Shown: positions 7,574 to 13,218 of the stretch, piece after piece
Position numbering within the stretch: the stretch's first letter is position 1
How the letters are laid out: each line of letters begins with the position of its first letter
Assembly (NCBI GenBank): GCA_001799195.1
Contig: MGSU01000076.1
Location: 1-14,373, forward strand
Direction: 5' to 3'
Origin: Deltaproteobacteria bacterium RIFOXYA12_FULL_61_11
GTDB taxonomy: Bacteria; Bdellovibrionota_F; JAHFAK01; YA12-FULL-61-11
DNA length: 14,373 nt
The notes under the pieces: model-generated
Seen by the model: the letters and a program-made list of their open reading frames with translations, nothing else
Databases searched by the model: none
Told to the model about the DNA's origin: nothing
Made by a program: the position numbers and the translations under genes

Positions 7574-9142
7574 GTGCGTGTACCGTTCTGCTGCGCCGGC
7601 CTGCTGCTGGTTTCGGTCGGCCTGGCCCAGGTGGGTCAGTACCACAGTCCTATCGAGAGTACCGTCTCCCTCGATCCCATGGAACAGGAGATCCTCGATT
7701 GGATCAATACCGTCCGTGCCGGTCGAGGCGTCCCCCCCTTGACCGTCGAAGGGGGCTATGTCCAGGTCCTCCGCCGCTATAGTGCCCTCCTGGCCAACCA
7801 GCGAACCGCCGAAGCCGTGAACAAGGACATTCTCCGCGCCCTGTTCTGGCAACAAGGCCTGTCCGATTACAAGATCGTACCCACCAGTCTGATGGCCGAA
7901 GGCAGCACCAAGCGCTTGCTCATCCAACTCAAGAGCATGCTGGTCCATGCCTTCGACCAACGCTTGCTCGACCCCCAGTACAACGTGGCCGCCTTTGGTA
8001 TCAAACTCCGGGAGGATGACCTCAAGGGTGCCTTCAGCTTGATGGAACGCAAGACCGTGCTCGCTCCGTTCCCCGCGCAAGTCGAGGCCGGCCGCTCCTA
8101 CCATCTCGAGGGAACCTTCGGTCCAGGCTACGGCGGCCCGATCCTCTACGTGACCTCGCCGCTCGGCACCGTGGTCAAGCTCGACGGTAAGCACCGCGGA
8201 GAACAGTTCTTCTTCGACTTCACCTTCCCCCGGGAAACTGGGAGGTACAGCCTCGAGGTCCTGGTCCGGGGGACCAAAGGACCGACCGTGGCCAATCTCT
8301 TCCCGGTCTTCCAGGGCGTCGATCCGGACTACGGCAAGGAGAATGCGGAGTTGGAGGTTGACGAGGACTTCGATTGCGATCCCACGGTCTGTGAACGCAC
8401 CCTCCTCGGGTGGGTCAACACCTATCGTGCCCAATACAAGCTGTCTCTCCTGGAGAGGGATGCAAAAATGGACCTCATCGCGCGAGGCCACAGCATCGAC
8501 ATGCAGCGCAACAAGTTCTTCGGCCATCAATCTCCGACCACGGGGAATGTCGGCGACCGGACCAAGGCCCAAGGCGTCGCCTTCCTCAAGGTCACCGAGA
8601 ACCTCGGCAAGGACACCAGCCTCGGGAAGGGGTTCTTGGGCCTCCTCGAAAGCCCCGGGCATCGCATGAACCTGCTCGATCGCGAGGTCTCCCGCATCGG
8701 AGTAGGTGTTGCCGGTGGGAAGGGACAACTCAAGTTCCTCACCCTCAACTTCCTCCTGCCTGGGAAAGGAGGTGCCCCAGGCGAGGTGCTGTCCGCTTTC
8801 AGCTCGAAGCTCGAATCGCTGCGCAGGAGCAGCGGAGTACCGGCGTTGAAACGGGACGACCGCCTCGAAGAGGTTGCCCGGGAACACAGCGGCTTCATGT
8901 TGGCCGAGGCTTCGGTGTCCTCGCAACTCAAGACCCACCCCCCGCTGACCGACAGGCTCCGCCAACGCACCCTGCGGGTGCGTAAGCTGTCCGTACTCGT
9001 GGGCAAGACCAAGACTCCCGAGAGCATGCTGACCTCGGAGAAGCTCAAGAGCGCCGAATTCGACACCCTGGGTCTGGGTGTCGTAGAAGATCCGGCCGAG
9101 AAAGGAATGTACTGGGTTACCATGATCCTGGCTAAGCTCTGA
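7574..9142 (+). CDS. Secreted multi-CAP (SCP/YkwD-type) domain protein
   Basis: A 522-residue exported protein with a short signal peptide (about 1-19, hydrophobic LLLVSVGLAQ). Only the middle CAP domain (about 274-395) is canonical: LLGWVNTYRA, then H306 in RGHSIDM, FFGH with H318, ENLG with E342, and SPGHRMNLL with H363. These are the histidines and acids lining the CAP cavity. An N-terminal copy (about 36-150) keeps only EILDWINTVRAGRGVPPL, and a C-terminal one (about 411-522) keeps RSSGVPALKRDDRLEEVA and REHSGFM, then LGLGVVED. Between the first two lies a beta-rich stretch (about 170-250) resembling an Ig-like sandwich. The GTG start at 7574 has TGAGGA upstream, overlapping the previous stop. 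Bacterial CAP proteins are usually extracytoplasmic; their activity is mostly unknown, so I assign none. Confidence 0.85.
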   Translation: MRVPFCCAGLLLVSVGLAQVGQYHSPIESTVSLDPMEQEILDWINTVRAGRGVPPLTVEGGYVQVLRRYSALLANQRTAEAVNKDILRALFWQQGLSDYKIVPTSLMAEGSTKRLLIQLKSMLVHAFDQRLLDPQYNVAAFGIKLREDDLKGAFSLMERKTVLAPFPAQVEAGRSYHLEGTFGPGYGGPILYVTSPLGTVVKLDGKHRGEQFFFDFTFPRETGRYSLEVLVRGTKGPTVANLFPVFQGVDPDYGKENAELEVDEDFDCDPTVCERTLLGWVNTYRAQYKLSLLERDAKMDLIARGHSIDMQRNKFFGHQSPTTGNVGDRTKAQGVAFLKVTENLGKDTSLGKGFLGLLESPGHRMNLLDREVSRIGVGVAGGKGQLKFLTLNFLLPGKGGAPGEVLSAFSSKLESLRRSSGVPALKRDDRLEEVAREHSGFMLAEASVSSQLKTHPPLTDRLRQRTLRVRKLSVLVGKTKTPESMLTSEKLKSAEFDTLGLGVVEDPAEKGMYWVTMILAKL

Positions 9143-9173
9143 CACGAGCGCCGGGTCGTTACAAAGAGGGACG

Positions 9174-9875
9174 ATGGAACGCGGAAAGATCAAATGGTTC
9201 AATGATGTCAAGGGATTCGGGTTCATCCTGGACAAGCATGCGCGGGAGGTCTTCGTTCACCGCAAGCACATCCAGGACTTTCGTCCCGCCATGGTCGAAG
9301 ATGAGGATGAAGTCTCCTACGAGCTCAAGATAGTCGATGACAAACCACAGGCACGCAAGGTCAAACTGCTCAATATTGCGCCCAAGAAAAAATTCGGAGC
9401 AATGGCCAAGAAGTTCTACAAGGATCTGATAACCAAAAAAAAACCTGTGGTCCTCAAGCTCCACGGGCGGAAGACAGCCGAAGGCCGCATCCTGCGCGTC
9501 GAACCCTACTTCCTGTACCTCGACATCGGCGGCGAAGAACTGGAAATCCGGAAACTCGACATCAAGTACCTCTATATGAAGAACGACGCCTACCTGGTCC
9601 AGAACAAGGTCAGGGTCGACAGCACTATCCGGCAGCTCGGGCTCGGTCCCATCGAACAGGTCAAGGACCGTTTTCGTTTACTGTGGGGCGACTTGATGTT
9701 GCATACCGCTCAGAGAGCCCGGCTGATCTTCTACCTGCTCGAAGGCGAATCCATGCTCGGCATGGTCGATTGGTTCACCAAGTATGAGATCCATCTCAAG
9801 CTCACCCCGCAACAGTCCGTGCTCCTCTTCAAACACAACCTTTTCAACCTCCGCCCCTTCAAGCCCCGGGACTGA
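9174..9875 (+). CDS. Cold-shock-domain protein fused to two Hfq/Sm-like domains
   Basis: A 233-residue predicted RNA-binding protein. The N-terminus (about 1-69) is a cold-shock domain: GKIKWFN, KGFGFI (13-18, RNP1) and VFVHR (26-30, RNP2), which bind single-stranded nucleic acid. Two Sm-fold-like segments follow. The first (about 81-136) has PVVLKLHGRKTAEGRI, then YFLYLD and IRKLDIKYLY. The second (about 172-228) has RLIFYLLEGESMLGMV, FTKYEIHL and LLFKHNLFNLRPF. The second aligns without gaps to the first two strands of Hfq, and its F219-K220-H221 falls where E. coli Hfq has Y55-K56-H57. The Sm call is my alignment by eye and is less certain than the CSD. GAGGG lies three bases before ATG 9174. 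It follows the CAP gene by 31 bases and is probably co-transcribed. A role as RNA chaperone or post-transcriptional regulator is inferred. Confidence 0.85.
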   Translation: MERGKIKWFNDVKGFGFILDKHAREVFVHRKHIQDFRPAMVEDEDEVSYELKIVDDKPQARKVKLLNIAPKKKFGAMAKKFYKDLITKKKPVVLKLHGRKTAEGRILRVEPYFLYLDIGGEELEIRKLDIKYLYMKNDAYLVQNKVRVDSTIRQLGLGPIEQVKDRFRLLWGDLMLHTAQRARLIFYLLEGESMLGMVDWFTKYEIHLKLTPQQSVLLFKHNLFNLRPFKPRD

Positions 9876-9943: not shown

Positions 9944-9959
9944 CTCGAGGTTGCCTCCG

Positions 9960-11759
9960 ATGTCGTCCGAGCCCCGAGATACCCCTGGAGCCGGTGCAGC
10001 CTCGCCACCCTCTCCCCCACCACACCGGAAAGACGCCGAGAATACCCTCGTCCAAGCAGTCGCCGAGCTCATGGTCGGTATAGAGAAATCGATCCGCACC
10101 CTCGTCCAGTTCGGCCCGGAGCACCAAAACTTCACCACCGTGGTCGGCCGCACCTACAAGCACCTCGATGGGGTGCTAGCCAAAGAAGAGGTATTGAGCC
10201 TGGGTATCGAACCCTTCCGCATCACCTACACCGACACGGTCGTGCTGGAAGACTTCGAGATAGACAAGAGCCTGTGCTACAAACTCTATCAGGATGGTGT
10301 TCGGGTCCTGCGCCTGCTCAGAGGCCTGAGCCTTAAAGAATTCAGTGAATTATTGTCAATCCTTGCCATCGATTTTCGCAACCCGCAATACCTGGACGAA
10401 GACACCATCACCCTGATGTGGAAACGGGACCTCGAAAGGATCCAATGCGACGTGGTCGAGGTCCTCTTCGAAGAGGACGAGCAACGGACGATCACCTATG
10501 AAGGCGTGGTCTCGGGTCTGACCGCAAGTACGGACCTCGTCTCGGCGCATCCCCCCCGGGGAGGTCACCGCGAGGACATCGATTCGTTGACCTTCGATCG
10601 TATCGAGCTCGACTCGGCCAAAGTAGAGGCCGTGTTCCGCTCCCTCGACACCCCTGATCTGCTCGAGCAAAAGGTCTACGGGTTGAGTGAGCACGATCGC
10701 GAGCAACTCGCCAAGGCCACCCACTCCCTCGATGCCGGCCAGGCGCATAAACTGATGCACGTGTTCATCTACCACATCGCCGAACTCCGCCCCGATGAAC
10801 GTATTGACCTCTACCTGAGCCGCTTGGTCGACCAGCTCCTCGAGCAGCGGAAGCTCAAGGAACTCGTCGCCATCTTGGTCCTACTGCAACAATTCTCCAA
10901 TGCCTTCCAGGGGAGGAAGCAGGAACTGTTGCGCTCCTTCTTGGCCGAAGCCACCTTGGCCGTGATCGAGGGCGAGCGGCGTACAGCGATACTCTCCCTG
11001 CTCAACGACCAAACGATCGAAACCCAGGAGAAACACTACCTCCTCGGGCTGCTCAGCACCAACCCACGGCTCCTCCCGACCCTCATCGACCTGATCGAAG
11101 AACTCCGCCAGCCGGCCTTGCGCCGCGCTGTTGCCGACCTCCTCTTGCCCCACCTCCGTCGGGACTTCTCACTCCTGACGGGAAAACTCTCGGCCAAGAC
11201 CTCCACGCTCCTCGCCTCGGAGGCCCTCTACCTCTTCGAAAAACTCCCCTTCGTCACCTACCGGCGCTTACTCCCCACGCTCCTCAGCCACCCCGATCCC
11301 TTCATTCGGAGAGCCTTACTGACCCTGGTAGAGAACAACGCCTCGGAGGAGTGCCTCGCCCTGGTGGTTCCCCTGCTCGAGGACGCCGACCGCGAAGTCC
11401 GCCTCGCGCTCCTGAAACTCTTGAAAAAACGCTCCTCGACGCAGTGCCATGAACTGCTGTGGCAACAACTCGAGCGCGGGGTCCTGTACGAACGAGACGA
11501 TCGCGAGCGTCGGCTCGTCCTCGGTCTCCTTGCTGCAGACGAAACCCGGCACCCCCAACTCAGGGACTTCTTCCTCTCCCGCAAACTGATCGGCTCGAGC
11601 GGAGTCCTAGAAACCCGCATCCGTCTGGCCGAGGCCCTGGCCGCCTCCACCCTGCCCGATAAAGTTGCGATGTTGAAGGAGGTGGCCGGCCGCCGGCTCG
11701 AGAACAAGGACCTCAAGATCGTCTGCGAAAACCTGCTCAGGACCATCGACCATGTCTGA
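9960..11759 (+). CDS. HEAT-type helical repeat protein with an N-terminal module shared with its partner
   Basis: A 599-residue cytoplasmic protein with no signal peptide or membrane helix. After a Pro/Ser/Ala-rich tail (1-23) comes an alpha/beta module (about 25-170). It contains KSIRTLVQFGPEHQNF, GIEPFRITYTDTVVLED, RLLRGLSLKEFSELLSIL and TLMWKRDLERIQCDVVEVLF. A variable linker follows (about 175-225). From about 260 to the end the protein is helix after helix, with HEAT-like units such as LLPTLLSHPDPFIRRALLTL and VVPLLEDADREVRLALLKLL, typical of a protein-interaction scaffold. The ATG at 9960 is preferred over the in-frame TTG at 9951 because GAGG (9947-9950) abuts the TTG but is nine bases from the ATG. 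Its stop overlaps the HD-GYP-like gene by eight bases, so expression is coupled. No catalytic motif is seen and the function is unknown. Confidence 0.8.
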   Translation: MSSEPRDTPGAGAASPPSPPPHRKDAENTLVQAVAELMVGIEKSIRTLVQFGPEHQNFTTVVGRTYKHLDGVLAKEEVLSLGIEPFRITYTDTVVLEDFEIDKSLCYKLYQDGVRVLRLLRGLSLKEFSELLSILAIDFRNPQYLDEDTITLMWKRDLERIQCDVVEVLFEEDEQRTITYEGVVSGLTASTDLVSAHPPRGGHREDIDSLTFDRIELDSAKVEAVFRSLDTPDLLEQKVYGLSEHDREQLAKATHSLDAGQAHKLMHVFIYHIAELRPDERIDLYLSRLVDQLLEQRKLKELVAILVLLQQFSNAFQGRKQELLRSFLAEATLAVIEGERRTAILSLLNDQTIETQEKHYLLGLLSTNPRLLPTLIDLIEELRQPALRRAVADLLLPHLRRDFSLLTGKLSAKTSTLLASEALYLFEKLPFVTYRRLLPTLLSHPDPFIRRALLTLVENNASEECLALVVPLLEDADREVRLALLKLLKKRSSTQCHELLWQQLERGVLYERDDRERRLVLGLLAADETRHPQLRDFFLSRKLIGSSGVLETRIRLAEALAASTLPDKVAMLKEVAGRRLENKDLKIVCENLLRTIDHV

Positions 11760-13218
11760 CATCCTCGAGGCCCCCGCCCCGGGACCGCAACGTCCGGAGG
11801 ACGGCCGCCGAGAGGAATTCTACTCCTCGGGAAGCTCCTTTCTCTCGGCCTTCTCCATCCTGCTGAAATCCGCCTTCATGTATGATCTCAGCAACCAGAC
11901 CATCCACGACGCGGCGGCCCGGGTGGCTGAGGCCGCACGCTCTCTCTGCGCCATCCTCAACGAGCCGAGTATCACCTATACCCACTCCAAGGATCTCTCC
12001 TTCGTCAACCGCACCGTGCTGCGCGTCAACGCCAACACCTATTGTTTCAACACATTGATACGAGAAACCCTCTTACGCTTGAACATCGGCGAATGCACCT
12101 TCGAACGCACGATCGAGGGTCCCATGCTCGTCTCCTTCCTGGCCGAATTCCAACACCACCTCGCCTTGCCCGAAGAGCGCCGTTCGGAAGTGTTCCGTTC
12201 GTCCTCTGGAGGTTTCACGATAGCTCCGGTCAAACGCCAGCGTGAAATCCTCTGGGGAGTAACCTCGGACCCCAAGGAGAACGCGGTCAACATCTGCGCC
12301 CTGCTCTACCTCTATGTGGACCGCATCGTCGACCAGGTCGACCAGGACCAGAAGAAACCGACCAAGGGAGTGAAGCGGTTCCTCCAACAAGTCGTCGATG
12401 CCTGCGCCGGACAGGAGCATCTGTGGTTGAGCCTCCTCTTCCTCGACAGCTACCGCGGCCAGACCACCGATCAGGTGGTCAAGTCGGCGATCCTGACCAT
12501 CATCCTGGCTCGCGCCGCGGGTCTCGATCGCAATCACCAGGCCGACCTGGGTTACGTCGCCATCTACTACAACCTGTTCAATGGGAAACTTCGCTCAGCC
12601 CTGGGCCAGGCCGAAGGGCACGTGGAGAGATTGTTGGCTCGCCGCAACACCTTGTTCTCGGCCCTCGATTATCTCATGACCTTCTTCTCCCTCACCGACG
12701 ACTGGGCCCGCCGCGCCATAAGCCTATTCGAACGCTACCACCGCTTTGACGGCGAACCGATCCATGGTCTGCCGGGGTATCGTTTTCGCTGGCCGCCTCA
12801 CCTCTATACCCAGATCGTGGCCCTGACCTCCGAATTCGTGGCCCTCGTCTCGGATCCCACGAGAGCGATGCTCCCCGACGAAGCCCTGCGGCTCTTCCAT
12901 CAACAGGCTGGAACCCTGTACAACCCCGCGCTGGTCAAGCTCCTGGTCAACCACATCGGCATCTACCCGATCGGCTCCATGGTAGAACTCAACACCGGAG
13001 AACGCGGCGTCGTCTACGACCTCCCCAAGGGCGCGACCAACTTCAACAAACCGATCGTCAAGGTCCTCTTCGACCCGCAAGGCCGCCGCGTCGGAGGCGA
13101 CGAACTCCGCGATCTCTCGGCCCTCGACGGCCAAGGGAAACCCTATCTCCGCATCCTCCGGTCGATCGATCCCTCGGCAACCTCGACCAATATCCCCTTC
13201 CTGTTCCTCTCGGCCTGA
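11752..13218 (+). CDS. Degenerate HD-GYP-like protein lacking metal-binding residues
   Basis: A 488-residue cytoplasmic protein. The N-terminal module (about 27-140) resembles that of the upstream HEAT protein. The rest follows the layout of HD-GYP cyclic-di-GMP phosphodiesterases: a helix with VVKSAILTIILARAAGL (242-258), then LGYVAIYYNLFNG where the HD of the HDIGK motif should be (about 270-278). ERYHRFDG (327-334) replaces HHE..DG, and GLPGYRFRWP stands near the GYP position. The C-terminal NPALVKLLVNHIGIYPIGSM and VELNTGERGVV match the usual region after the HD-GYP core. With the HD pair and several metal histidines gone, phosphodiesterase activity is unlikely; a binding or scaffold role is inferred. 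ATG 11752 overlaps the HEAT gene by eight bases. The fold is an alignment by eye and should be confirmed by profile search. Confidence 0.75.
   Translation: MSDILEAPAPGPQRPEDGRREEFYSSGSSFLSAFSILLKSAFMYDLSNQTIHDAAARVAEAARSLCAILNEPSITYTHSKDLSFVNRTVLRVNANTYCFNTLIRETLLRLNIGECTFERTIEGPMLVSFLAEFQHHLALPEERRSEVFRSSSGGFTIAPVKRQREILWGVTSDPKENAVNICALLYLYVDRIVDQVDQDQKKPTKGVKRFLQQVVDACAGQEHLWLSLLFLDSYRGQTTDQVVKSAILTIILARAAGLDRNHQADLGYVAIYYNLFNGKLRSALGQAEGHVERLLARRNTLFSALDYLMTFFSLTDDWARRAISLFERYHRFDGEPIHGLPGYRFRWPPHLYTQIVALTSEFVALVSDPTRAMLPDEALRLFHQQAGTLYNPALVKLLVNHIGIYPIGSMVELNTGERGVVYDLPKGATNFNKPIVKVLFDPQGRRVGGDELRDLSALDGQGKPYLRILRSIDPSATSTNIPFLFLSA

Follow-up and report, generated by a model that had tools for sequence, protein, structure and literature searches.

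The CSD-Sm-Sm gene and its surroundings

The window, i.e. the whole stretch of 14,373 nucleotides that was analysed, is contig 76 of a genome of 4.64 Mb that is 87% complete (G000). An open reading frame (ORF) on its forward strand encodes a protein with a cold-shock domain (CSD) followed by two Hfq-like domains, here called Sm1 and Sm2. The gene has the following features:

9164..9171, forward strand: possible ribosome-binding site, AAGAGGGA, preceding the start codon at 9174, read from the sequence
9174..9875, forward strand: ORF of the CSD-Sm-Sm protein, 233 aa and stop, ATG start (ORF calls, Pfam, conserved homologues L003 and L004)
9174..9371, forward strand: cold-shock domain, residues 1-66, with RNP1-like KGFGFI and RNP2-like VFVHR (PF00313)
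9399..9581, forward strand: Sm1, Hfq-like domain 1, residues 76-136 (AlphaFold model, Foldseek/VIA, hhalign)
9582..9686, forward strand: linker, residues 137-171, containing VDSTIRQLGLGPI (alignment A3, motif listing)
9687..9860, forward strand: Sm2, Hfq-like domain 2, residues 172-229, with G191, G196, F201 and Y204 retained (PF17209, hhalign, residue table)
9828..9836, forward strand: F219-K220-H221, at the place of Y55-K56-H57 of Hfq, the proximal uridine pocket (alignment with E. coli Hfq)

The letters AGAGGG could be read directly 5' of the ORF start, and the codon-position G+C of the ORF is close to that of the adjoining genes. The product of the upstream gene (7574-9142) is 522 aa long and matches CAP in two stretches (PF00188, E 1e-20), and Pfam assigned the downstream gene (9951-11759) to a HEAT-repeat protein. 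A Pfam search of 11752-13218 revealed no match, and an Rfam search of the window detected no RNA. In genome G001 the homologue seems, as judged by eye, to have a ribose-phosphate pyrophosphokinase and a HemW-like protein as its neighbours. Because the gene neighbours differ between the window and G001, the genomic context gives no function, and an operon-based function was rejected.

Domain architecture of the protein

Pfam detected the cold-shock domain (PF00313) at residues 3-64 with an E value of 1.6e-14 and 53.9 bits, above the gathering cut-off of 27. This confirmed a preliminary description of the DNA, which had placed a CSD with KGFGFI and VFVHR at the N-terminus. With both RNP motifs, the N-terminal domain is like the cold-shock proteins CspA/CspD (PF00313); these are normally free proteins of about 70 aa, whereas the CSD of the window protein is one module of three.

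When residues 75-233 were searched against PDB sequences, Caulobacter Hfq ranked first (E 0.005). In Pfam, 'Hfq related' (Hfq_1, PF21979) matched best at residues 84-117 (E 3.3e-5, two stretches) and Hfq (PF17209) at residues 179-229, with E 9.5e-5 in the search with the whole protein and E 3.6e-5 with the Sm2 piece by itself. The score for PF21979 (24.4 bits) was 2.6 bits short of the curated cut-off of 27 bits; for PF17209, also with a cut-off of 27 bits, the whole protein scored 22.4, 4.6 bits short, and the Sm2 piece 23.7. As these scores lie just under the Pfam cut-offs, the window protein taken alone is borderline, a doubt that is removed by its family.

Two profiles of the Sm-Sm region were built, A2 from three proteins (window, G001 and G040) and A3 from an alignment of 23 rows. 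Searching 386 genomes with A3 revealed matches of the first half to single-domain Hfq_1-type ORFs and of the second half to short ORFs resembling ordinary Hfq (QD.LN..R.....G....F...YKHAI). The Hfq set for hhalign was gathered with A3, and the E. coli and B. subtilis Hfq sequences aligned to this set alike. Comparison of the family profiles showed 97.5% for Sm1 with Hfq_1, 91% for Sm1 with Hfq and 97.7% for Sm2 with Hfq, which bears out the earlier assignment of residues 75-233 to the Hfq/Sm families. Sm1 and Sm2 matched each other with 76% at 10% identity; controls against the CSD gave 0.2-0.4%. Scores from 150 column-shuffled Hfq profiles peaked at 15.2 for Sm1 and 19.9 for Sm2, compared with 35.6 and 64.2 observed, and hhalign gave at most 2.4% and 12.4%, respectively. 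A chance resemblance to Sm was rejected on these shuffled profiles and on the homologues in two phyla.

AlphaFold modelling of residues 75-233 from the single sequence showed a helix (76-88) and five strands (91-96, 101-109, 113-118, 121-126, 130-135) across approximately residues 76-136, with pLDDT mostly 57-79. Alignment of this Sm1 model with Hfq (Foldseek and VIA-align) gave Z up to 11.4 and an rmsd of 1.4 over 63 residues; all 50 matches listed in the structure search were Hfq, including the E. coli, S. aureus and cyanobacterial proteins. In the model, Sm1 is an Hfq/Sm fold with a helix and a five-stranded barrel. Single-sequence pLDDT was below 50 for Sm2 and 37 for the full-length protein, too low for the latter model to be used, so the predicted monomer upholds the proposed fold for Sm1 and leaves Sm2 to the sequence profiles. 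Within residues 75-233, the model rules out a non-Sm fold of Sm1, and the profiles make one unlikely for Sm2. Profiles, profile-profile comparison, Sm1 model and homologues agree with the original proposal of a CSD and two Sm/Hfq domains in one chain, and the window protein almost certainly consists of a CSD followed by two different Hfq-like domains in tandem.

Conserved residues in Sm1, Sm2 and the linker

Sm1 of the window protein keeps G104, Y112 and K127, and the histidine of the KH motif is absent (L128). The preliminary description had the first copy lacking KH altogether; the loss holds for the histidine (L128 at the place of H57), and the lysine is present (K127 at the place of K56). 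Mapping of the 23 family rows on E. coli Hfq showed K or R at position 56 of Sm1 in 22/23, absence of H57 in nearly all and no conservation of D40. Sm1 has an F/Y-Y-x-x-K-Q-M/I helix and an I-K-Y-M/C-F/Y-K end in common with single-domain Hfq_1-type ORFs (PF21979; Hfq_rel_Cyano, NF047718). It differs from the three Hfq_1-type ORFs, which are single-domain proteins, in the lost KH histidine and in scores below the cut-offs.

In Sm2, G191, G196, F201 and Y204 correspond to G29, G34, F39 and F42 of E. coli Hfq, and F219-K220-H221 to Y55-K56-H57; the loop is two residues longer than in Hfq. The G-x4-F-x2-aromatic spacing, the FKH triplet and the longer loop noticed before all agree with this alignment. 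Across the family, G29 and G34 are kept in 23/23 rows, H57 in 21/23, an aromatic residue at F42 in 20/23 and K or R at position 56 in 18/23. D40 of Hfq is absent from Sm2, and the rim residues R16/R17, common in Sm2 of the family, are replaced by T and A in the protein studied here. With H57 lost from Sm1, and D40 from both domains, the RNA code is predicted to differ from that of Hfq. The linker sequence VDSTIRQLGLGPI resembles DEEIKxxxLxPI, which is present in many relatives; a regular-expression search showed that it is conserved only in part, and a fixed linker motif was rejected.

Distribution of the family

Relatives were searched with the complete protein. G001, which is of the same class, had a match over the full length at 28% identity, and G040, which belongs to another phylum, had a partial one. 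Both homologues carry CSD, Sm and Sm in this order, so the arrangement noticed in the window protein is retained. The G001 homologue (L003) exceeds the Pfam Hfq cut-off with 30.0 bits in two separate stretches.

Profile A2 matched 2/2 genomes examined of the window's phylum and 79/84 genomes of G040's phylum (55/55 good-quality genomes), in the latter mostly over the whole profile length and in ORFs of 210-357 aa. Of 74 ORFs with at least 85 matched Sm-Sm profile positions, 44 had a CSD and 30 did not, a rough split since the copies of some genomes are counted twice and since the local CSD model missed at least one Pfam-seen CSD (L135) and may call a weak one (L120). Tandem Sm-Sm forms without CSD were found in other lineages (G426 and relatives, 228 aa; G178; G154; G430), as well as in G181/G446 with a weak ParB_N match. 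PhyH matches numbered 82-140 in each of 5/6 genomes tested of G040's phylum; as a high PhyH content is a known feature of Poribacteria (PMC3909097), this phylum is probably Poribacteria.

Viral contigs scanned with the Sm-Sm part contained no relative, and genome contigs searched with the whole protein gave CSD matches only. The matches listed in a plasmid search were mostly annotated cold-shock proteins; a single record had a query coverage above 80%, at 25.8% identity and E 1e-3. A phage or plasmid origin was rejected on the viral and plasmid searches.

In a single-domain tree of 59 columns, and hence of modest power, Sm1 and Sm2 each formed one clade, and a split with support 99/93 separated Sm1 and three Hfq_1-type proteins from Sm2 and the Hfq set. 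The grouping of Sm1 with Hfq_1-type proteins and of Sm2 with classical Hfq points to an old and asymmetric pair. Within its rows, the tree is consistent with a single origin of the pair, be it an old duplication or the fusion of two types of Hfq. Single and repeated gain of the CSD were not separated (p-AU 0.169).

Occurrence of single-domain Hfq

A Pfam Hfq search of G000, G001 and G040 revealed no single-domain Hfq ORF above the cut-off. The best match in G000 and G040 was the CSD-Sm-Sm protein itself; in G001 a slightly better weak match lay in an unrelated 600-aa frame. Since G000 is 87% complete, a missing Hfq gene in this genome could be a gap. In 81 genomes of G040's phylum, Hfq matches above the cut-off were found in ORFs of 158-1244 aa, except for one 96-aa ORF in G060; this genome is without the tandem, its tandem-profile matches being short and single-Sm. 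The tandem check covered these long ORFs apart from two, of 826 and 1153 aa. None of the six other tandem-bearing genomes tested had an ORF above the Pfam Hfq cut-off.

Some tandem-bearing genomes of G040's phylum have degenerate single-Sm ORFs below the cut-off. Two of these (L130:2246-2719 and L131:2468-2848) combine a possible coiled-coil with a single degenerate Sm (FKHALCYI).

The CSD-Sm-Sm protein spans at least two bacterial phyla that are little known and that, for the most part, yielded no single-domain Hfq. The odds that it functionally replaces Hfq in lineages without a clear single-domain Hfq appear to us about equal either way.

Comparison with known RNA chaperones

Hfq is the best-studied bacterial RNA matchmaker. 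Its Sm fold with an N-terminal helix, G29, G34 and Y/F-K-H (PF17209, TIGR02383) recurs in Sm2, and an RNA-chaperone role is expected. Hfq has one domain per chain and is a homohexamer of single-domain subunits, whereas the window chain has two different Sm domains and a CSD, and scores below the cut-offs of both models (22.4 of 27 bits for PF17209, 23.1 of 61.7 for TIGR02383). With its 176 positions, NF010691, named RNA chaperone Hfq, has room for a pair of Hfq domains on a single chain, as in the window protein; we take NF010691/PRK14091 to be a tandem Hfq with both copies Hfq-like. No CSD is described for NF010691, in contrast to the window protein, which scored 15.2 bits against its cut-off of 270. 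Searches of Pfam and NCBIfam gave no model of the CSD-Sm-Sm architecture, NF010691 being the closest long model, and searches confined to open-access papers on Hfq yielded no account of a fusion of CSD and Hfq or of this Sm-Sm tandem family.

Proposed function and alternative explanations

We favour, as the moderately probable overall explanation, a single-chain RNA chaperone composed of a cold-shock domain and two unlike Hfq domains. That the protein binds RNA is predicted with high probability. A putative pseudo-hexamer, to which we give an even chance, would consist of three chains closing into one six-domain ring with Sm1 and Sm2 alternating; the presence of two Sm domains in each chain and the linker length of about 35 residues speak for it. 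In such a ring, working uridine pockets (Y204, F219, K220, H221) would lie in the three Sm2 domains and an altered pocket, with K and without H, in the three Sm1 domains; the cold-shock domains on the rim would hold or melt single-stranded RNA. The protein would then do the job of Hfq, binding and remodelling sRNA and mRNA. Points that count against the overall explanation are the Hfq scores of the window protein slightly short of the Pfam cut-offs, the low pLDDT of Sm2, T and A in place of R16/R17, the altered RNA code, the possible gap in G000 and the degenerate single-Sm ORFs.

Instead of closing into a ring, the tandem could act as a monomer or small oligomer, like the Sm-like protein Rof, and form a docking module, for example for Rho, an RNase or the ribosome, with RNA bound by the CSD. 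Rof, an Hfq homologue, acts on the transcription machinery as a Rho inhibitor (PMC11018626); unlike the window protein, it is a single domain without CSD. The loss of the KH histidine in Sm1 agrees with docking, as does the fusion of Sm-Sm to large unrelated proteins, which is expected of such a module; given that Sm2 keeps both glycines (23/23) and the KH histidine (21/23) and that Sm1 and Sm2 stay together in nearly all members, we regard it as rather unlikely. Six chains could also build one Sm2 ring, or two stacked rings, with Sm1 as the second ring or as decoration and no pseudo-hexamer. Nothing counts directly against this arrangement; the linker allows either. Both the closeness of Sm2 to the classical, homohexameric Hfq and the dissimilarity of Sm1 and Sm2 (76% at 10% identity) speak for it; we nevertheless judge it unlikely. 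It is highly improbable that the Sm likeness is due to chance and conceals another small-barrel fold (WYL, S1, SH3-like). Small barrels do have patterns in common and the window scores are borderline alone, but the family profiles reached 91-98% with Hfq, shuffled profiles at most 2.4% (Sm1) and 12.4% (Sm2), and the Sm1 structure matches listed were Hfq in 50/50 cases. For Sm1 the model essentially refutes another fold.

If the pseudo-hexamer is correct, the expected ring is asymmetric and has RNA sites of two kinds; such a hetero-domain ring would be a bacterial parallel to the eukaryotic move from homomeric to heteromeric Sm rings. Csp and Hfq, the two classical bacterial RNA chaperones, are joined here in one polypeptide. 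The family further suggests duplication or fusion as a way for Sm rings to diversify within bacteria. The protein may be the route by which these bacteria handle regulatory RNA, and the family is the obvious candidate for this task in lineages without a recognisable hfq. More tentatively, with the balance somewhat against it, two phyla could have swapped the Hfq homohexamer for a ring of alternating Hfq_1- and Hfq-type domains with CSDs around it, the tandem module having spread onto putative defence proteins.

Other proteins carrying the Sm-Sm tandem

Sm-Sm was located at the C-terminus of sacsin-type proteins of approximately 1200 aa (L125:650-4381; L126:3998-7621), which match PADLOC TmtA models with E down to 1.7e-106 and are candidate anti-phage proteins. 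GmrSD-type (DUF262) restriction proteins (L136:2285-4948; L137:413-3247) carry a C-terminal Sm-Sm followed by a CSD, i.e. the modules of the window protein in another order on a likely defence nuclease. A 433-aa ORF (L135:44-1342) has S1 repeats, then Sm-Sm and CSD, and a 1344-aa ORF (L127:878-4909) combines a UvrD-type helicase, a GrpE-like stretch, Sm-Sm and S1 repeats. Two 538-aa proteins (L149:1204-2817; L150:622-2235) have repeated helical segments in the N-terminal part, Sm-Sm, and a ParB_N-like stretch at the C-terminus (weak match, E 0.0036).
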